Shown: positions 9,081 through 17,678 of the stretch, piece after piece
Position numbering within the stretch: position 1 is the stretch's first letter
How the letters are laid out: each line of letters opens with the position of its first letter
IMG/VR virus record: IMGVR_UViG_3300020020_000031
Coordinates: 1-61,315 of that record
Origin: a virus
DNA length: 61,315 nt
Strand: one strand, 5' to 3'
Notes under the pieces: model-generated
Told to the model about the DNA's origin: nothing
Seen by the model: only the letters and a program-made list of their open reading frames with translations
The model's database searches: none
Made by a program: the position numbers and the translations under genes

Positions 9081-9702
9081 GGACGTGTATGAGACTATCC
9101 GGGAGGACATCCGCTGGGATCATCTACGCCAGCCCGGAATCGTCCTGGTGAAAGGACGAGGTCAGGACGTTCCCGGATTGTGCCGAGCCATGATCGTAGG
9201 CGAAGCGCCCGGAGCCACGGAGAACACGCGGCGCCGACCGTTTTGCGGTCCCTCCGGACGAGTCCTGGATCAATTGATGGCGGTTGCCGGTCTGTATCCG
9301 GACGAGTACGATTGTAGCGACGAGGCTATTATTGCGACTTGCGCCGCCAATTGCTTCATCACCAACGTTGTCAAGTATCGCCCGCCCGGTAACCGGACGC
9401 CAAGGCCGGATGAGATTGCATGGGGGGCCGAAGCGCTACGGAAGGAATGGACCATGCTCGGCCGTCCGCGCCTCCTTGTAGCCGTGGGCGCTACGGCAAG
9501 AGCGGCCTTGGTTCCTAAGATGTTCGGGACCGTAGCGCCAGGCAAGGTGGTGGATCTAGGCTCTCAGGTAGGAGAGGGACCGTTCGTGTGGGTTCATTAC
9601 CATCCCGGTTGGGGGCTTCGTCAAGGGGACTCCGCTCGCCGGACAATGGAGCGCCAATGGGAGGAGATGGGTGCGTGGATGACTCGGATGCTCTATACCT
9701 AG
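9052..9702 (+). CDS. Uracil-DNA glycosylase, family 4/5-like
   Basis: The 216-residue protein has motif 1 GEAPGATEN, RRPFCGPSGRVLD, the strand FITNVVKYRPPGNRTP, and the late VHYHPGWGLR, which mirrors the HP(S/G) motif of the UDG superfamily. These mark a type-4/5 glycosylase that removes uracil from DNA. The typical iron-sulphur cysteines are partly present (GLCRAM, FCG). GTG at 9052 was chosen after AGCAGGGGG; TTG 9043 is an alternative. It pairs logically with dCMP deaminase, whose activity raises dUMP. Confidence 0.8.
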   Translation: MGSPQALGLEDVYETIREDIRWDHLRQPGIVLVKGRGQDVPGLCRAMIVGEAPGATENTRRRPFCGPSGRVLDQLMAVAGLYPDEYDCSDEAIIATCAANCFITNVVKYRPPGNRTPRPDEIAWGAEALRKEWTMLGRPRLLVAVGATARAALVPKMFGTVAPGKVVDLGSQVGEGPFVWVHYHPGWGLRQGDSARRTMERQWEEMGAWMTRMLYT

Positions 9703-10088
9703 AGTTTGCACGGAAGATAGGTGTTGCCAACGGTACGTGCTCTCGCCGGAATGTAGGCGCGGTCCTGGTGGCTGGAGGCCGAGTCCGGGAAACTGGTTGG
9801 AATGGGATGGAGCGTTCCTTAGACGCGCCAACCTGCATGATCGGCGCTTGCCCCCGTGGAATGCTATCTCTAGAGGAGCAGCCACGCGGTAGCGGATACT
9901 CCAACTGCATATATCTTCACGCAGAGTACAATGCGTTGGAGAACTACCGACTATCGGCCAATATCCGTAACCAGAAGGGTTGGGCTACGGGAATCCGTGT
10001 ATATACATCATCCAATCCTTGCCAAGATTGCTGCAAGTATTCCGAATGGGCAGGATCGATGCTAGTGTGGGATCCGGAGGGGTTATGA
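9675..10088 (+). CDS. Deoxycytidylate (dCMP) deaminase
   Basis: The 137-residue protein contains the zinc-dependent deaminase signature HAEYNALEN (His and catalytic Glu) and PCQDCC (the two further zinc Cys). It converts dCMP to dUMP, feeding ThyX encoded at 16506. The GTG start has a strong GGAGGAG site eight bases upstream and overlaps the UDG gene by 28 bases. Cys residues between the motifs could bind a structural zinc, as in other phage dCMP deaminases. Confidence 0.85.
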   Translation: MDDSDALYLEFARKIGVANGTCSRRNVGAVLVAGGRVRETGWNGMERSLDAPTCMIGACPRGMLSLEEQPRGSGYSNCIYLHAEYNALENYRLSANIRNQKGWATGIRVYTSSNPCQDCCKYSEWAGSMLVWDPEGL

Positions 10089-10432
10089 AGGTCTATATCG
10101 CCGGTCCCATTACCGGATACGAGGATGGCAACCGTGCAGCCTTTCGTAAGGCGGAGGCTGAGCTGATCCTGAAGGGTCACGTTCCCGTAAACCCTCACAC
10201 CGTCAAGCCTCAGCACGACGACGATTGCTATGCCAGGAAGATTGGCAGGCACTCCGCTTTGGTGGATGGGCACCACAGCGAGCATTCTTATGCCTGCCAT
10301 CTCCGGGCGGACATCATCGCTCTCCTCGACTGCGAGGCGATTACGATGTTGCCGGAGTGGACGATCTCTCGTGGCGCTACTGCCGAGTTTGCCGTAGCTA
10401 ATGCTATGGGGATGGAGGTGATTGACCTATGA
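10085..10432 (+). CDS. DUF4406/nucleoside 2-deoxyribosyltransferase-like protein
   Basis: The 115-residue protein starts KVYIAGPITG, the nucleotide-binding opening of the nucleoside 2-deoxyribosyltransferase/DUF4406 family, and ends with the matching RGATAEFAVANAMG element. A His-rich insertion lies in between (DGHHSEHSYACH). Family members bind deoxynucleosides and may salvage or sense them. It overlaps the deaminase by four bases (ATGA), which supports joint expression. Confidence 0.75.
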   Translation: MKVYIAGPITGYEDGNRAAFRKAEAELILKGHVPVNPHTVKPQHDDDCYARKIGRHSALVDGHHSEHSYACHLRADIIALLDCEAITMLPEWTISRGATAEFAVANAMGMEVIDL

Positions 10433-10608
10433 AGATCATACGGCACAACAGGAACCTTTTGGTCGAGCCGGGATTCCATTGGCTCCATTCCGGCAATGGA
10501 GGCTCTGCGGTCCTCAAGACCGACGTCTCCTGGCGCAACATATCCGGAATCATCATCGCCACGGAGTCTTCGGTGATGTTCGTCTACTTCAGACGGTCCC
10601 CAAGGTGA
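10429..10608 (+). CDS. Small protein overlapping the polymerase start
   Basis: This 59-residue reading frame begins at ATGA overlapping the previous stop and ends four bases into the polymerase GTG (GTGA at 10605). Such tight coupling at both ends argues that it is real. It looks beta-rich (repeated short hydrophobic runs such as ISGIIIAT and VMFVYF) and basic; no family was recognised. Confidence 0.6.
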   Translation: MKIIRHNRNLLVEPGFHWLHSGNGGSAVLKTDVSWRNISGIIIATESSVMFVYFRRSPR

Positions 10609-11513
10609 GAACGCCTAGCCTACATCACCATTCAACGTTCAGCTATATGGACGGCTTCGGGACTCCGGCCCAACACGTGGAACGCGCGGTGGAGTTGGAA
10701 ATGTGGGCTCTAGCTTTCACGGAGCACGGCAATGTTAGTTCCCACGTAGGGCTGGAGAAAGCTGCATTAGCGGCGGGGATCAAACCGATCTTTGGCCTTG
10801 AGGCGTATACCCACCCGGACCCGGATTCGCAATTAAAGTTCCACCTAACCCTCTTGGCGATGGACCAGACCGGCTACTCCAACCTCAACCGCGTGGTCAC
10901 GCGCTCCTGGGCGGAAGGCTTCTACTATTACCCGACCGTATCCGGGCAAATGCTAGCCGACCATCATGAGGGTTTGATCGTCCTCTCAGGATGCTCGGAC
11001 TCGCTGCTGGCCTGTAGTCTCCTTGGCGGGAAGGACATCCCTGCTAGCTTCGCCGGATTTCATAGGGCCAAGCGGTTGGCCGCTAACTTTCGCGCTCTGT
11101 TCGGGGATCGGTATTATTTGGAAGTGCAAGCATTCCCGATGTTTGATCGCGCAAAGCAGATTGCGCAAGCGTATTGGAGAATAGCCGAGCAACTCCATAT
11201 TCATATAGTGGTGACATTCGACGTCCATACGCTCCGGCCCGGTCAAGGCGAGATGCGGGCGCTCCTCCACGCGGCCGGACGTGGGACCAATACTATCGCC
11301 AAGCAACTCTCCTCCTGGGAGTATGATGTGCCGGACTCTCCGCCCCTCAGCGACGCCTACGCCATGAAGATGTTGCGGGAGTTGGGTTTCAGCAAGATGA
11401 AGGCAAGCTACATCATGGCACAGACCGCCATCGTAGCGGAGCGTTGCAATGTTACGCTCCCCAAGGCAAACAGATTCCGTTACAAGGGAACAGAGGCCAG
11501 CCTGACATGGTAA
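10605..11513 (+). CDS. dnaE: DNA polymerase III alpha subunit, PHP-domain fragment (split gene, part 1)
   Basis: The 302-residue protein is the N-terminal PHP domain of a DnaE-type polymerase. Metal ligands typical of active PHP domains are retained: LHHHST, FTEHGN, FGLEAY, FHLTLLA, LSGC and TFDVH. It ends with ERCNVTLPKANRFRYK, which in complete DnaE proteins directly precedes the palm. The coding frame then stops, and the polymerase core resumes 430 bases later in another frame. Active PHP domains can supply 3'-5' proofreading, so this may be a separate subunit that associates with the core. GTG 10605 overlaps the upstream stop. Confidence 0.85.
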   Translation: MRTPSLHHHSTFSYMDGFGTPAQHVERAVELEMWALAFTEHGNVSSHVGLEKAALAAGIKPIFGLEAYTHPDPDSQLKFHLTLLAMDQTGYSNLNRVVTRSWAEGFYYYPTVSGQMLADHHEGLIVLSGCSDSLLACSLLGGKDIPASFAGFHRAKRLAANFRALFGDRYYLEVQAFPMFDRAKQIAQAYWRIAEQLHIHIVVTFDVHTLRPGQGEMRALLHAAGRGTNTIAKQLSSWEYDVPDSPPLSDAYAMKMLRELGFSKMKASYIMAQTAIVAERCNVTLPKANRFRYKGTEASLTW

Positions 11514-12043
11514 CCATTCAAGACCTATTCCTGTGGGGAATGGACCGGGTAGTCCCGCAGTTACTGACTCCGCCGAAGGGAGTACAGATCAATCTGGGTC
11601 CGGGTAACGTCAAGAACATTCCAAATACGGTCGGGGTCGGTAGGTTGCACGAACTGAAGACGGAGATCGAGTGGGAGTTCCCGGAGCCGATCCCATTTGA
11701 AGATGGAACCGTCTCGGCCGTGCACGCCTATCACTTCATGGAGCACTTCTCCGGAGAGGATTGTCTGAAGATCCTGAGGGAGATGCAGCGAGTTCTCATC
11801 CCGGGCGGAGTTGCTTTCATCTGTACTCCGTATCCGGATACTCCGGGGTACTGGCGCGCTCTAGACCATAAGAGCGCTTGGTGCGAGGAGACTTGGAACT
11901 GGGTCTTCGAAAACCCATACTACGACGGAGGCGCTGAAGTACCATGGGAACTACGGCTACACGCTTGCTTCATCATGGGAATAGTAGAGCGCAACCGGGC
12001 GCTATTCTCTCAGCTGATCAAGAAGCATTCCTGGACCCGGTAG
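11507..12043 (+). CDS. SAM-dependent methyltransferase-like protein inserted between the polymerase parts
   Basis: The 178-residue protein has a class I methyltransferase layout: INLGPGN (motif I), PFEDGTVSAVHAYHFMEHF (the acidic/aromatic motif IV region) and EMQRVLIPGG. The C-terminal part (NPYYDGG, VVERN-like) matches a set of small actinophage methyltransferase-like proteins. Its ATG overlaps the PHP fragment stop by seven bases, and its 3' end overlaps the polymerase core by 100 bases from ATG 11944. Substrate is unknown; DNA, sugar or protein are all possible. It may have arrived as an insertion that split the polymerase gene. Confidence 0.7.
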   Translation: MVTIQDLFLWGMDRVVPQLLTPPKGVQINLGPGNVKNIPNTVGVGRLHELKTEIEWEFPEPIPFEDGTVSAVHAYHFMEHFSGEDCLKILREMQRVLIPGGVAFICTPYPDTPGYWRALDHKSAWCEETWNWVFENPYYDGGAEVPWELRLHACFIMGIVERNRALFSQLIKKHSWTR

Positions 12044-14259
12044 AGATCCTGTGGGCCTGGCTCCGAGAGGGATGGCGGTACCGCCTCCGGCAGGGGAACA
12101 CCCGCCTCAAGACCCACCAGCCGGAGTACCTGGAGCAATTGCAACAAGAGACCGAGCTAGTTATATCCAAGGACTTCGCCAGCTACTTCTTGCTGGTGTC
12201 GGATATTGTCCGCTGGGCAAAGGACCACGGGATTGCGGTCGGTCCCGGTCGCGGTAGCTCTGCGGCTAGCCTTGACTGTTATCTACTTCGCATTACCGAG
12301 CCAGATCCTCTAATGTTCCCATTGACAGACTTCACCCGCTTCATAGACCCCACCCGCGTGGATCTCCCGGACATAGACGTTGACTTTGATGACGTGCGCC
12401 GCCATGAGGTCCGGGAGTACGCGGTATCGCGGTGGGGCGAGGAGAGCGTTGCCAACATCGGAACCTTTACCAAATACAAAGGCAGGAACTCCATCACGGA
12501 CGTTGGGCGAGTATACGCGATCCCGCCCGGGCCGTTGGCAGTGGTCAAGGGAATGATCATCGAGCGCTCGGGCGGAGACTCTCGTGCGGACGCTAGTCTT
12601 GAGGACACCTTTGCTAGCTTCCCTCCGGCGGCGGAAGTCCTGGCGCTATACCCCAAGCTACAGATGGCGGTTGAGCTTGAGGGTAACTACCGGGGTATGA
12701 GTACCCATGCGGCCGGCTTGGTGATCTCCGATACGCCTATTGCTGACGTATGTGCGATGTACTCTCGTCTGGTTCATGGCCGACCAATTGCGGCCGTAGC
12801 AGTCGACAAGAAAGATGCTGAGTACCTGGGATTGATGAAGATTGATGTCCTGGGACTGACCACCATGGGCGAGATCGCAGAGATGTTGCAGCTGACCGGG
12901 ATGACGCTGGAGGAGTTGTACGCGCTCCCGTTTGACGATGAGCTTACGTTTGCCGCGTTCCAACGGGCGGACGTCATAGGCATATTCCAGTTCGAGGGGC
13001 GCGCTACCCGCCTGGTTTGCCGGGAGGTCAAGCCGGAGGACATCTATGAACTCATTCACGTCAACGCGCTCTCTCGCCCAGGTCCGTTGTTCTCCGGAAC
13101 GACTACCGAGTTCATTAACATCAAGCGCGGACTTATGGAGATCCCTCTGATCCATCCCATCCTGGATCGGATAGCGGCTCCCACGCGCGGACAGATCATC
13201 TATCAAGAGCAAGTGCTGCATTCCTTGGCGGAGTTTGGTGGATTGCCGGTCCAGCGGGTCCATGATATCCGGAAGATCATCAGCCAGAAACTGGGAGAGG
13301 CGCAGTTCAATGCCTCCTCGGAAAACTTCATAACTGGTGCAATGGAACGGAACAACGTCTCGCGCGAGGTAGCCTTCAAGGTTTGGGAGCGTGTTGTGAC
13401 CTCCGCCTCCTATGCGTTCGTCTATAGCCACTCGCTCTCGTACAGCATCATCGGGTATTGGTGTCAATGGTTCAAGCAGCATTACCCTACGGAGTTCTAC
13501 CAAGTCAAACTGGGGCGGACCTCGGACAATCAGCGACCCATACTAGTGAGGGATGCAGAACGGCACGGAGTCCGGGTCAAAGGGGTGACGCTAGGCAAGA
13601 GCGCTATTGGTTGGACGTCTCCGCGGAACGGCGAGCTAGTGGCGGGTTATGAGACCCTACCCGGAGTAGGGCCGGTCGTGGCCGCCAAGATATCCAAGAC
13701 GGAGGCGGAGCGCGGCGGATTCACTCAGGTGGAGGAGTTGTTGACGGTCCCTGGTATTGGACCCAAGACCTTGGAGAAGATGCGGCCACTTGTGAACGTG
13801 GAGGACCCATTCGGACTCCGACGCCTTGAGGAGGATATGGGCCGCGTACGCAAATGGATCCCTACGGCCGGACTGCCTACCCCGACGCATGTCTCTGATG
13901 AGCTACTGGACGTTAGTGAAATGGAGACGGTATTTCTGGGATTTGTGTTGGAGCGGAACTACCAAGACTATGTGGAGAACAAGAGAGCGCGCTACGGGAC
14001 GGAGGTCGCCGACATCATCAAGGAGATGCGGCGCCCGGACCTCAAGACGAGCGTGGTCCTACGCTGCGTAGACGATGGAGATGAAGATGTGTACGTACGG
14101 ATCAACCGCTACGATTTCCCAAATCTCAAGAGCCGTATAGACGGCATAGTGGTGGGTCGGGACATGGTCCTCGTCCGAGGTCGCAAGAGCGATAAGGTGG
14201 CAGCATTCGGAATCTCTGTGCAGACGAAGTGGCTGGTTCCCATTGATCCCAACGATTAA
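11944..14259 (+). CDS. dnaE: DNA polymerase III alpha subunit, catalytic core (split gene, part 2)
   Basis: The product contains the DnaE palm, thumb, fingers and C-terminal domains. Key sites are PGRGSSA (about 101-107), catalytic PDIDVDF (142-148), the third catalytic Asp in MKIDVLGL (about 297), a fingers segment, and a helix-hairpin-helix (VPGIGPKTLEKM) before an OB-like end. Homology to full DnaE starts near residue 29 (FLDPVEIL). ATG 11944, with GGAGG 12 bases upstream, is the only ordinary start in this frame before that point; it overlaps the methyltransferase by 100 bases. A -1 frameshift from the methyltransferase frame would also reach this frame, but no clear slippery site is seen. 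Confidence 0.85.
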   Translation: MGTTATRLLHHGNSRAQPGAILSADQEAFLDPVEILWAWLREGWRYRLRQGNTRLKTHQPEYLEQLQQETELVISKDFASYFLLVSDIVRWAKDHGIAVGPGRGSSAASLDCYLLRITEPDPLMFPLTDFTRFIDPTRVDLPDIDVDFDDVRRHEVREYAVSRWGEESVANIGTFTKYKGRNSITDVGRVYAIPPGPLAVVKGMIIERSGGDSRADASLEDTFASFPPAAEVLALYPKLQMAVELEGNYRGMSTHAAGLVISDTPIADVCAMYSRLVHGRPIAAVAVDKKDAEYLGLMKIDVLGLTTMGEIAEMLQLTGMTLEELYALPFDDELTFAAFQRADVIGIFQFEGRATRLVCREVKPEDIYELIHVNALSRPGPLFSGTTTEFINIKRGLMEIPLIHPILDRIAAPTRGQIIYQEQVLHSLAEFGGLPVQRVHDIRKIISQKLGEAQFNASSENFITGAMERNNVSREVAFKVWERVVTSASYAFVYSHSLSYSIIGYWCQWFKQHYPTEFYQVKLGRTSDNQRPILVRDAERHGVRVKGVTLGKSAIGWTSPRNGELVAGYETLPGVGPVVAAKISKTEAERGGFTQVEELLTVPGIGPKTLEKMRPLVNVEDPFGLRRLEEDMGRVRKWIPTAGLPTPTHVSDELLDVSEMETVFLGFVLERNYQDYVENKRARYGTEVADIIKEMRRPDLKTSVVLRCVDDGDEDVYVRINRYDFPNLKSRIDGIVVGRDMVLVRGRKSDKVAAFGISVQTKWLVPIDPND

Positions 14260-14456
14260 AAGAATCTTGCCTAGTACACTAGCCCCACCGCCCGGTATCG
14301 GAGAGAATCAGTTTGCTAGTCCGATTTTGCGAGGAGGGGAGAGGGATGGTCTAGGGCGAACCGGCTCAGGAACACTGATGAAAATTACAGGAGGCGAGCC
14401 CTGGAACTCGCCTCCTGTTTGCTGGAAAACTGACGAAGATCCTTTAAGGAGAAACG
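14260..14456 (+). other. Intergenic region after the polymerase
   Basis: About 200 bases without a convincing gene. It holds a GAGGAGGGGAGAGGG purine-rich stretch (14331-14345) that resembles a ribosome site but leads to no long frame, a TTTGCG element (14326-14331) without a matching -10, and the terminator hairpin listed separately. Confidence 0.6.
14388..14420 (+). terminator. Terminator hairpin after the polymerase core
   Basis: An 11-bp perfect stem CAGGAGGCGAG/CTCGCCTCCTG (14388-14398, 14407-14417) with an 8-base loop is followed by TTT. It should end the replication transcript that includes the split polymerase. Confidence 0.75.
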
Positions 14457-14825: not shown

Positions 14826-15291
14826 CCTGCAACAGCTAGTAAAAGATGTACTGGAGAATTCGGAACTGAACGATCCGCGCGATATCGCAGCCGAGGTGTC
14901 TCGACAAACTCCATCCAAGGTTCTCCGTGAGGCTTATGAGATTGCGCTGGTGGACTACGTACGGAACGTCAGTATCAACAATACCCGATCTAACCCGATC
15001 ATTCGTGGAAGGACCCCGCGAATCAAGACGGGCTCCGCCAAGCGGATTGGGATTCGCGACTGGTGGCAGCGAGCGATGCGGGATCGGGTCTATATCGACT
15101 CCAACCAGAAGATCTGGAAGCCTCTTGGGGATTGCGGCTTTGATGACCTAATGCTGGCTGCCGACAGCCGGCGTGCCAAGGCCGATGCAATCAACGCCAA
15201 GGCTGATCAATTCGAGCGACTTGCGAATCTACTCAAAGAGTATGGTGTGGATTGCGTCTCCGAGCTTCCTCGTGAGGCCATCGATGCCTAA
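14812..15291 (+). CDS. Conserved actinophage-type hypothetical protein
   Basis: The 159-residue protein begins at GTG after GAGAGGGAGCC. The centre (IRDWWQRAMRDRVYI, then GDCGFDDLMLAADSRR) and the C-terminal helix that ends in VSELPREAIDA match a protein type common in actinophage replication regions, from memory. It may bind nucleic acid, being basic and helical in its first half. Function is not established. Confidence 0.65.
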   Translation: MSNFDLQQLVKDVLENSELNDPRDIAAEVSRQTPSKVLREAYEIALVDYVRNVSINNTRSNPIIRGRTPRIKTGSAKRIGIRDWWQRAMRDRVYIDSNQKIWKPLGDCGFDDLMLAADSRRAKADAINAKADQFERLANLLKEYGVDCVSELPREAIDA

Positions 15292-16402
15292 GAAGACTCC
15301 TGGCCGGGCCAATAACGGCCCGATGCCCATACGCGCCTCGCCCGGCCAGGGCAAGACTCTCGGGAAGACCACAACCCCAACTACAACCATAGCCAATTCG
15401 CCTTCCCGGGACAAGACTCCACGTCAGGCCAGCGAGCATCCGAAGCCCATGGGCGGCTCGCCTGACGTGGACCTATTCGAACCCACTCTAGCCCTGTCCG
15501 CTGATGTTCTGGATGACCTGGAGCAAACCAGGATCGCTAACGAGAATCGGCTCCGCCAGCTTGTTCGATCTGAGGCCGACAGCGACGGAGAGGAGCGCGG
15601 CTTTGGACTGGATGACACCAATCCTGTCGTGGCCGCACTCCAGAAGATGATTGCTGGACTCTTCGAGATTGAGGGGAAAGCTGTACTCAATCTTGAGAAG
15701 GTGATGAAAGCGCACCCTCTCGGGGAGTGGCAGAGAGCGCAGCACGGAATTGGCGCTAAACAATGCGCACGCCTTATAGCCGCTATCGGGGACCCATACA
15801 TCAGACCGGCATACGCGATCGAGAACGAAGACGGGACTGTTACGGAGGTCCCAGCCGCTCCGCGTACCGTGTCGCAACTTTGGGCCTATTCCGGCTATCA
15901 CACACTCCCCATCGGCCAGGCGCGAGACGATACCCATATAATAGTCGCCGATGGGGGCAAACTCCCGACCAGCAGCCATCTTACCTTCGAAACCCACAAG
16001 GGCACCGCTGCTGTTCGGGGCAAGTCCGGCAACCGGAGCCAGAGTCCCTCCGATCCCCATCCACCATTCGCTTCGGTTGCCGCAAAACGTAAGAAAGGCG
16101 AACGCGCCAATTGGTCCGCTGACGCCAAGATGCGTGCATTCCTTATTGCAGAGAAAACGGTTCAGCTAGGAAAGGCGGTCGACAGCCCGTACTATGAGGC
16201 GTATGCAAAGCGCAAGGCTAACACAGAAGGTCGGACCCATGTTGCGCCTTGTGTCCGTTGCGGGCCTAGTGGGAAGCCTGCCTTGAAAGGTTCCGTATGG
16301 TCGGACGGTCACCGCCACGCCGACGCGCTCCGTATTGTTGCCAAGGAGATCCTGAAGGGCCTCTGGATAGAGGCGAAGAGGCTTCACGAGGAGGAGAAAT
16401 GA
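15284..16402 (+). CDS. IS110/Transposase_20-related protein with a replaced N-terminus
   Basis: The 372-residue protein has a Pro/Ser/Thr-rich, probably disordered N-terminus (residues 1-60), a coiled-coil-like helix, then a segment that matches the C-terminal half of IS110-type transposases: GIGAKQCARLIAAIGD (about 155-170), RTVSQLWAYSGY (194-205) and KGERANWSADAKMRAFLIAE (about 275-295). The DEDD RuvC-like nuclease domain that IS110 enzymes carry in front is missing. A Cys pair (CVRCG) and His-rich end follow. No flanking insertion-sequence ends are seen, so this is probably a domesticated phage protein that binds branched DNA rather than a mobile element. Confidence 0.6.
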   Translation: MPKKTPGRANNGPMPIRASPGQGKTLGKTTTPTTTIANSPSRDKTPRQASEHPKPMGGSPDVDLFEPTLALSADVLDDLEQTRIANENRLRQLVRSEADSDGEERGFGLDDTNPVVAALQKMIAGLFEIEGKAVLNLEKVMKAHPLGEWQRAQHGIGAKQCARLIAAIGDPYIRPAYAIENEDGTVTEVPAAPRTVSQLWAYSGYHTLPIGQARDDTHIIVADGGKLPTSSHLTFETHKGTAAVRGKSGNRSQSPSDPHPPFASVAAKRKKGERANWSADAKMRAFLIAEKTVQLGKAVDSPYYEAYAKRKANTEGRTHVAPCVRCGPSGKPALKGSVWSDGHRHADALRIVAKEILKGLWIEAKRLHEEEK

Positions 16403-16509
16403 ATCAATGGGTTGTGGCGTTCCTAATCTTCTGGTTGGGAACCGGAGCGCTTACTGTGGCGAACAACTTCGCCAACGTCCTCAAAGAAAAGAACAAGAGG
16501 CTGCGATGA
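16399..16509 (+). CDS. Tiny single-pass membrane protein
   Basis: A 36-residue frame with GGAGGAG upstream overlaps both neighbours by four bases (ATGA each). One hydrophobic segment (WVVAFLIFWLGTGALTVA) is followed by a basic tail (KEKNKRLR). Function is unknown; tight coupling to the ThyX gene argues that it is translated. Confidence 0.55.
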   Translation: MNQWVVAFLIFWLGTGALTVANNFANVLKEKNKRLR

Positions 16510-17678
16510 ACGAACCGGCTTGGTTGACCGAGCACCGCGAATCTAAGTCCCTGTTGCAACTCCTGGCACCTCTATTCTCCGGCCACGAGGGGTTGGCGGA
16601 TCAGGAGTTAGACAATCTTGTCCATGTGGCGGAGACTGCGTTCAACAACCACTCCAAGAACACCGGGGAGCACGTCTCGCCATTCGATACCGGCATCGTT
16701 CGGGTAGGAACGGATGGTCTGGAGGTCCGGTTGCTCCAGGGCATTAACTTCGCCGGCCTCAAGCAGGTTATAGCAAAGGGAGTTCGCGCCACAATTGGGA
16801 ACCCTCGTCCGCAACGCTGGACTCCGCCAAGCCTTATGTCAGATCACCAGACGGTCTCCGACGAAGAGTGGCAGGAGATGTTCCGGGGTGGACTCCAAGC
16901 CGCGCTGGAGTCCCAGACGATTGTCTTTGAGGTCTGGGGCGCGTCCCGTGTCCTGACGCACCAGTTGGTTCGCAGTCGCCGCGCGGGATTCCACCAGCAG
17001 AGCCAGCGATCTACCTGGTACGGCGACCAACCTGAGGTACGGATGCCGGAGACCGTATGGCGCGCTGGCCATGTGGTTCGGGAGAGGTGGAGACAAAGCT
17101 ACTTTGCTGCGTGGGATGCGTACAGGAAAGCTTGCGACGCAGGAGTGCCGTACGAGGATGCGCGGTACATCCTCCCGGAAGGAACCGTCAACTACATCCA
17201 GTGCGAGTACACCATTCGGGAGTTCATGGCGGTCTACGCCTACCGGGGGTGCTCAATGTTCCTCCGGGAAATGGTTGAGTGTATGCGGTTGATGCGCGCC
17301 GCGCTCCTGGAGCAGGCTCCCTGGATGGAGCCGTTCGTGAAGGTCTCCTGCGAGACCGGACCCGGTTGCCCAGAGTGCGGCGGTCGTGGTTCATACTTTA
17401 CCGAATGGAGCGATGCAGCCTCGGCTAATCCCGAACTCGATCGAATGGTCCGTTATTACCCGGACCCACCGGATGGTACGGTCGAAATCGAATGCCAGAC
17501 CTGCCACGGAACAGGCGGTCGCAAGTGCACCTTCCAGGGCTGGGAGAATGTCGAGCTCGCGTGCGACAAGCCAATGGCCAAAGAAAACAACCGGGTATTT
17601 GTTGCTTCCCCCCGGCTTCGCATCGGAGCTAAAGAACGGCCCGCCACCGACAAAGAAGTAAAGGACTGGCTGTCATGA
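16506..17678 (+). CDS. thyX: Flavin-dependent thymidylate synthase, extended form
   Basis: The 390-residue protein has the ThyX core; its signature is RSRRAGFHQQSQR where the family motif is RHRxxSxNxxSxR, so the His is replaced by Ser. VWGASRVLTHQLV precedes it, and the REMVECMRLM helix follows. It would methylate dUMP to dTMP using folate and FAD. Beyond the usual core of roughly 220-250 residues it carries a C-terminal extension with two CxxC-type knuckles (CPECGGRG and CQTCHGTGG), resembling a DnaJ-type zinc module. Pathway partner: dCMP deaminase at 9675. The start ATG overlaps the previous stop. Confidence 0.85.
   Translation: MNEPAWLTEHRESKSLLQLLAPLFSGHEGLADQELDNLVHVAETAFNNHSKNTGEHVSPFDTGIVRVGTDGLEVRLLQGINFAGLKQVIAKGVRATIGNPRPQRWTPPSLMSDHQTVSDEEWQEMFRGGLQAALESQTIVFEVWGASRVLTHQLVRSRRAGFHQQSQRSTWYGDQPEVRMPETVWRAGHVVRERWRQSYFAAWDAYRKACDAGVPYEDARYILPEGTVNYIQCEYTIREFMAVYAYRGCSMFLREMVECMRLMRAALLEQAPWMEPFVKVSCETGPGCPECGGRGSYFTEWSDAASANPELDRMVRYYPDPPDGTVEIECQTCHGTGGRKCTFQGWENVELACDKPMAKENNRVFVASPRLRIGAKERPATDKEVKDWLS

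Follow-up and report, generated by a model that had tools for sequence, protein, structure and literature searches.

A viral DnaE polymerase encoded as separate PHP and polymerase genes, broken at the PHP-palm junction

In the virus record IMGVR_UViG_3300020020_000031 of IMG/VR, analysed over its positions 1 to 61,315 (61,315 nucleotides, hereafter the window), a C-family (DnaE-type) DNA polymerase is encoded in two pieces, with a methyltransferase-like gene between a stand-alone PHP half and a stand-alone polymerase half. Two complete open reading frames (ORFs) cover one ancestral protein, each under purifying selection, and 26 distinct loci (window included), from both isolates and environmental contigs, share the break. 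From these sequences it is likely that the locus specifies a natural two-subunit DnaE, with the PHP proofreader docking in trans. The ORFs for PHP, methyltransferase and polymerase lie each in a different frame of the + strand and overlap by 7 nucleotides (PHP/methyltransferase) and 100 nucleotides (methyltransferase/polymerase), so that the coordinates confirm the layout given in an initial annotation of this DNA, namely a PHP protein of 302 amino acids, a complete methyltransferase-like gene and a polymerase gene, overlapping in succession.

Two complete halves of one polymerase

The PHP half (10605..11513, + strand, 302 amino acids) extends from a GTG at 10605 to a TAA stop at 11511-11513, and its start is fixed by the GTGA overlap (10605-10608) with the TGA stop of a 59-amino-acid upstream ORF (10429..10608, + strand). 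The protein matches the Pfam PHP family (PF02811, E 1.3e-37), and its AlphaFold model (predicted local distance difference test score, pLDDT, 90.6) has bacterial Pol III alpha PHP domains as its best PDB matches. The full-looking set of metal ligands reported in the initial annotation holds up in the alignment, where nine of nine positions are retained (H7, H9, D16, H41, E66, H80, C130, D206 and H208) and none is lost. In DnaE1 of Mycobacterium tuberculosis, the same nine residues bind three zinc ions in a PHP domain that confers intrinsic proofreading (PMC5636811), with the difference that this polymerase is one polypeptide and the window encodes two ORFs. The PHP half is most likely a proofreading 3'-5' exonuclease, as predicted by likeness to the M. 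tuberculosis and Taq DnaE proteins.

The polymerase half (11944..14259, + strand, 771 amino acids) contains the catalytic palm, finger and C-terminal HhH domains of a C-family polymerase with their catalytic aspartates, and matches Pfam DNA_pol3_alpha (E 4.6e-64) and DNA_pol3_finger (E 3.7e-34). The palm motif PDIDVDF, which the initial annotation had placed in a different frame from PHP, is indeed found in this ORF, and the alignment retains it together with the second aspartate region KIDVLGL, at the invariant PDxDxDF- and KxDxLGL-type positions. The PDB sequence of Escherichia coli alpha is matched from residue 51 on (E 1e-83), and the family phrog_11165 (782 positions) over nearly its full length (E 4e-247, window polymerase residues 33-770 against positions 12-772). 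This family appears, from its sequences, to consist of polymerase halves without PHP; in PHROGs it is named only 'DNA polymerase', and the separate PHP half is not recorded there. The ORF begins with an ATG at 11944, probably the present translation start, preceded by a Shine-Dalgarno-like GGAGG inside the methyltransferase gene (11927..11931, + strand). Conservation sets in at about residue 30; because homology to relatives without the methyltransferase resumes at 12034, the first ~30 residues are not a conserved leader.

Both halves are under purifying selection. Where computable for the window and loci L001, L002 and L003, the ratio of nonsynonymous to synonymous substitution rates (dN/dS) was 0.06-0.12 for PHP and 0.07-0.08 for the polymerase, values that are rough because synonymous sites are near saturation.

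Position and distribution of the break

In the model of an intact homologue (L020, pLDDT 88.7), the final PHP helix extends to residue 275 and the palm opens with a helix from residue 293; an ordered linker (pLDDT 91-96) joins the two and leads into the palm helix. As modelled, the break is in the loop between these helices, and the polymerase half retains the palm helix whole.

Related phages, among which the initial annotation had expected uninterrupted DnaE genes and the same break point to be informative, provide both: with environmental contigs included, about 50 loci are intact and 26, the window among them, are split. Cultured phages with the break are Onyinye (gp82/83/84), Krampus (gp56/57), TinyMiny (gp61/62/63), Weiss13 (gp72/73/74) and Wollypog (gp56/57/58/59), the last with an HNH gene in the gap, while P3.1, Ranch, Hawkeye, Gumball, Wentworth, Phreeze, Fury, NovumRegina and Sujidade have an intact DnaE. 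PHP and polymerase genes are adjacent in all 26 split loci. Among 80 cellular loci examined, a split DnaE was found in none of the 78 bacterial loci in which both parts were present. As a side observation, 7 of 11 records of the Weiss13 group, which includes Send513, Nilo, Riparian, Zenon, Candle and MontyDev, label the stand-alone PHP half (L033 2641-3576 in Weiss13 itself) 'DNA polymerase III sliding clamp'; the sequence identifies it as a DnaE PHP domain.

A tryptophan-ended tail on split PHP proteins

According to the initial annotation the PHP protein ends exactly where the domain does. Instead, it runs on past the boundary in a tail of about 10 residues, YKGTEASLTW (11481..11510, + strand), that intact homologues lack. 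This tail is common to the split PHP proteins: in 26 of 26, a tryptophan (Trp) stands 9-10 residues past a conserved tyrosine or phenylalanine (+9 in the window's own split group, group A below, and +10 in the others), within a sequence of the type Y-x(2-4)-acidic-(L/W/M/F)-x-(P)-W that shows small departures, and it is usually at or near the C-terminal end. Among the intact homologues, about 50 in number, five also place a Trp at this distance, where it is part of the first palm helix. The tail resembles the start of the palm helix (STEDYL in E. coli), and the break might conceivably have duplicated that stretch.

The same DNA carries signals for the following gene. By manual reading, the tail TGG overlaps the start codon of the next ORF in 20 of the 26 loci (with three weak GTG cases), in contexts such as ACATGG, CCATGG and AGTGGTGA with a purine-rich ribosome site upstream; in the window, a Shine-Dalgarno-like AGAGG (11492..11496, + strand) lies within the tail codons, 10 nucleotides 5' of the methyltransferase ATG. 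In Wollypog gp57 and Weiss13 gp73 the annotated start lies exactly at the tail TGG, in agreement with this overlap, and the Trp tail could on these grounds be a mere by-product of an embedded ribosome site and start codon (GAGGA...CCATGG and similar). We regard this explanation as rather unlikely, since the Trp remains in six loci that use or permit no such start: Krampus, TinyMiny and L058 read CCC TGG, which permits neither an ATG nor a GTG start, and keep Asp-Leu/Trp-x-Pro-Trp despite synonymous variation in its codons, and at the tail TGG of L052, L017 and Onyinye no ORF of at least 35 codons starts. Moreover, the PHP proteins of the Krampus group continue for ~40 residues after the Trp, and their codons for D, L and P vary synonymously. 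Because the Trp persists in the six loci and the codons vary in this way, we read the tail as selected at the protein level as well as the RNA level.

Repeated changes between split and fused forms

Trees built from the polymerase, from PHP and from both concatenated recover largely the same split groups, each with intact neighbours. Group A comprises the window, L001-L003, L005, L017, L006-L009 and L011; group B L052, L054 and L058; group C Wollypog, Krampus, TinyMiny, L022, L069 and L072; group D Onyinye, L048, L050 and L071; and group E Weiss13. The joined tree needs six changes between split and intact states, and its well-supported branches force all six. Forcing all splits into a single clade costs 1080 log units, and that topology is rejected (p-AU 2e-53). 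Within group A the intact pair L004/L020 probably has a nested position, as a window split group without the pair is weakly rejected (p 0.02). The junction of the pair, FRYP-xA-DPVxELW, runs from the PHP end directly into a split-type polymerase start, so that the pair looks like a fusion of two formerly separate genes.

The tree alone cannot separate gain from loss of the split. Several splits and at least one fusion are favoured by the sequences at hand, because cellular DnaE is intact and the intact linkers hold no clear relic of the tail. The alternative of one early split, undone by several later fusions, would account most simply for a shared tail by inheritance and for the fusion-like L004/L020 among split relatives; it is nevertheless doubtful, as fusion must then recur many times, the other intact proteins show no clear tail relic, cellular DnaE is not split, and a group A without L004/L020 is rejected only weakly. 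That the PHP-palm junction is a recurrent split point, at which separate lineages turned a one-piece replicative polymerase into a two-subunit one, each gaining the same Trp docking tail, and phages toggle between a fused and a two-piece proofreading polymerase, is possible and is put forward tentatively.

Proposed assembly of the halves

We propose that PHP and the palm-fingers-HhH polymerase each form a polypeptide of their own, encoded by neighbouring genes whose translation is coupled, all three genes of the window presumably being translated, and that the halves most likely reassemble into one replicase with proofreading in trans. The Trp-ended tail would probably aid the docking of PHP on the polymerase, and its DNA usually also supplies the gene that follows with a ribosome-binding site and a start codon. 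The low confidence of the tail in the model of the lone window PHP protein (pLDDT about 60) would fit a need for a partner.

Several points weigh against this proposal: low model confidence alone is not proof of such a need, the tail may function in translation alone or in PHP folding alone, and the spacing of 12 nucleotides between GGAGG and the ATG at 11944 is rather long. The halves might also be made separately without forming a complex, with the polymerase working alone and PHP acting as a free nuclease or phosphatase or having another job. In favour of this, the break leaves the halves without a covalent connection, the tail may do no more than cap the PHP fold, and a reduced PHP domain is tolerated by some DnaE polymerases (PMC3919608). 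We judge this improbable, given that the two genes are neighbours in 26 of 26 split loci with matching trees and that all nine zinc-ligand positions are retained. There is precedent for cooperation between such parts in the split gp43 of Aeromonas phage 25, which co-purifies as an active polymerase, and in the split NrdA of phage Aeh1, which is active (both reviewed in PMC2988022).

Although metagenome contigs carry errors and one PHP gene (L009) has an apparent frameshift, it is scarcely credible that the arrangement reflects faulty sequencing or assembly, gene decay, or halves that are rejoined by frameshifting, an intron or an intein, all of which we reject: the polymerase frame holds 7 stops upstream of the polymerase start (11434-11935) and the PHP frame 10 stops from 11511 onward, so that one indel cannot join them; neither overlap contains a slippery heptamer; Rfam gave no RNA or intron family above threshold, its only match (PVT1_3, E 0.2, far below threshold) being due to chance; none of the three proteins has a Pfam match to an intein, and the insert has none to an endonuclease; and the break occurs in 25 other distinct loci, independent isolates among them, with strong purifying selection. 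The initial annotation had taken the arrangement as stable rather than decaying and had named a sequencing error that restores one frame among the findings that would refute its reading; the selection on both halves, their kept catalytic residues and the recurrence of the break in many phages sustain it. The PHP gene of L009 (4799-5693) is broken by its apparent frameshift at about residue 42, possibly a sequencing error, and in Serratia phage KKP 3709 (L038 4049-5953) DnaE is annotated as at least three adjacent ORFs, which resembles frameshifts in the record and not a domain split.

The methyltransferase and other cargo of the gap

The gene in the gap (11507..12043, + strand, 178 amino acids; ATG at 11507, TAG stop at 12041-12043) encodes a class I methyltransferase-like protein that matches phrog_6636 over nearly its full length (E 1.4e-32) and Methyltransf_11 above the cut-off (E 1.2e-7) over profile positions 52-95, the second half, only. 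Its G+C content is near that of the neighbouring genes. Any suggestion that it made the split is refuted by L001, L002 and L003, which are split at the identical point with nothing between the two genes; their PHP proteins are 78-80% and their polymerases 82-87% identical to those of the window, and their polymerase start overlaps the PHP stop or lies within tens of bases of it. Because these loci carry the same break without it, the methyltransferase (METHYLTRANSFERASE) is, on sequence comparison, later cargo.

Local alignments on both flanks place the end of homology between the window and L001 at 11510 and its resumption at 12034. The methyltransferase insert (11511..12033, + strand), without counterpart in L001, thereby measures about 523 base pairs, against 53 unrelated bases in L001. 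The methyltransferase ATG occupies the spot (ACATGG) that L001 and L002 use for the polymerase start, and the last methyltransferase codons and stop are polymerase DNA read out of frame. In our reading the methyltransferase has taken over the polymerase start of the near relatives, and the polymerase now starts inside the end of the methyltransferase gene.

The proposal in the initial annotation that the domain linker is a permissive insertion site agrees with the differences in gap cargo between lineages. The gap is empty in L001-L003, L048, L069, L022 and Krampus; others hold small ORFs of several unrelated kinds or, in Wollypog, a NUMOD4/HNH endonuclease gene. A homing endonuclease is a common, though not obligatory, companion of split phage replication genes; none lies at the window break, where the insert is the methyltransferase. 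In our reading the gap serves as a landing site for such cargo. Related methyltransferases are found upstream of dnaE in L010, L011, L023, Gumball and Ranch; the one in L023 (513-1019, 41%) was the sole methyltransferase relative from the IMG/VR search and lies directly 5' of an intact, distant DnaE on a 4.3-kb contig. A small protein of about 64-98 amino acids ending in P-V-W-(I/V/Y)-W or a near variant recurs in the gaps of L006, L007, L008, L009, L011 and L017, and its L006 member, which was the one tested, had no match in Pfam or PHROG.

Relation to known split polymerases

A split DnaE is in itself not new, being annotated in GenBank, embedded in phrog_11165 and the subject of one sentence in PMC7302621. 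That sentence mentions the two DnaE genes of Microbacterium phage cluster EF, in a passage that gives no break point, recurrence or tail. In the literature searched, outside which most subscription journals lay, it was the only statement found on a separate PHP gene or a split phage DnaE, and no report was found of the domain-boundary position, repeated gain or loss, a dual-duty tail or cargo turnover. The two-gene DnaE of actinophages (cluster EF, e.g. Krampus, as well as Wollypog, Onyinye and the Weiss13/Papyrus group) has the same PHP/palm break, with the PHP gene likewise upstream on the same strand and ending in a Trp tail, but nothing, small ORFs or an HNH endonuclease gene occupies its gap, whereas that of the window holds a methyltransferase overlapping both parts.

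In cyanobacteria, DnaE is also encoded in two genes, with the split-intein break elsewhere in the protein than the PHP/palm break. The cyanobacterial halves are rejoined by protein splicing (PMC3919608), and no intein was found here. Aeromonas phage gp43A/gp43B and Aeh1 NrdA are likewise essential replication enzymes made as two cooperating cistrons and linked to mobile endonucleases (PMC2988022), a cooperation that is predicted for the window proteins; these are, however, a B-family polymerase and a ribonucleotide reductase, split in few lineages and without a repeated break at a domain boundary.

Two-piece phage DnaE proteins with fused close relatives bear on the role of PHP and on whether it needs covalent attachment, since in split phages PHP can be supplied, withheld or exchanged independently of the polymerase. 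Should the tail act in docking, it would define a short peptide linking proofreader and replicase. A single stretch coding both for a protein tail and for the start signal of the next gene is, in addition, an unusually compact form of translational coupling.

Genomic neighbourhood

A promoter scan returned no promoter and fewer matches than expected from shuffled sequence. On either side of the polymerase locus, at 9588-10432 and 16407-17678 of the window, lie genes of nucleotide metabolism, with deoxycytidine monophosphate deaminase, nucleoside 2-deoxyribosyltransferase-like and thymidylate synthase functions. Amid the replication genes, a 409-amino-acid ORF (15173-16402) matches phrog_4285, named 'transposase' (E 2e-77). 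Shortly 3' of the polymerase gene, at 14387-14418, lies a 14-base-pair inverted repeat (ACAGGAGGCGAG..CTCGCCTCCTGT) with AGGAGG in its stem.

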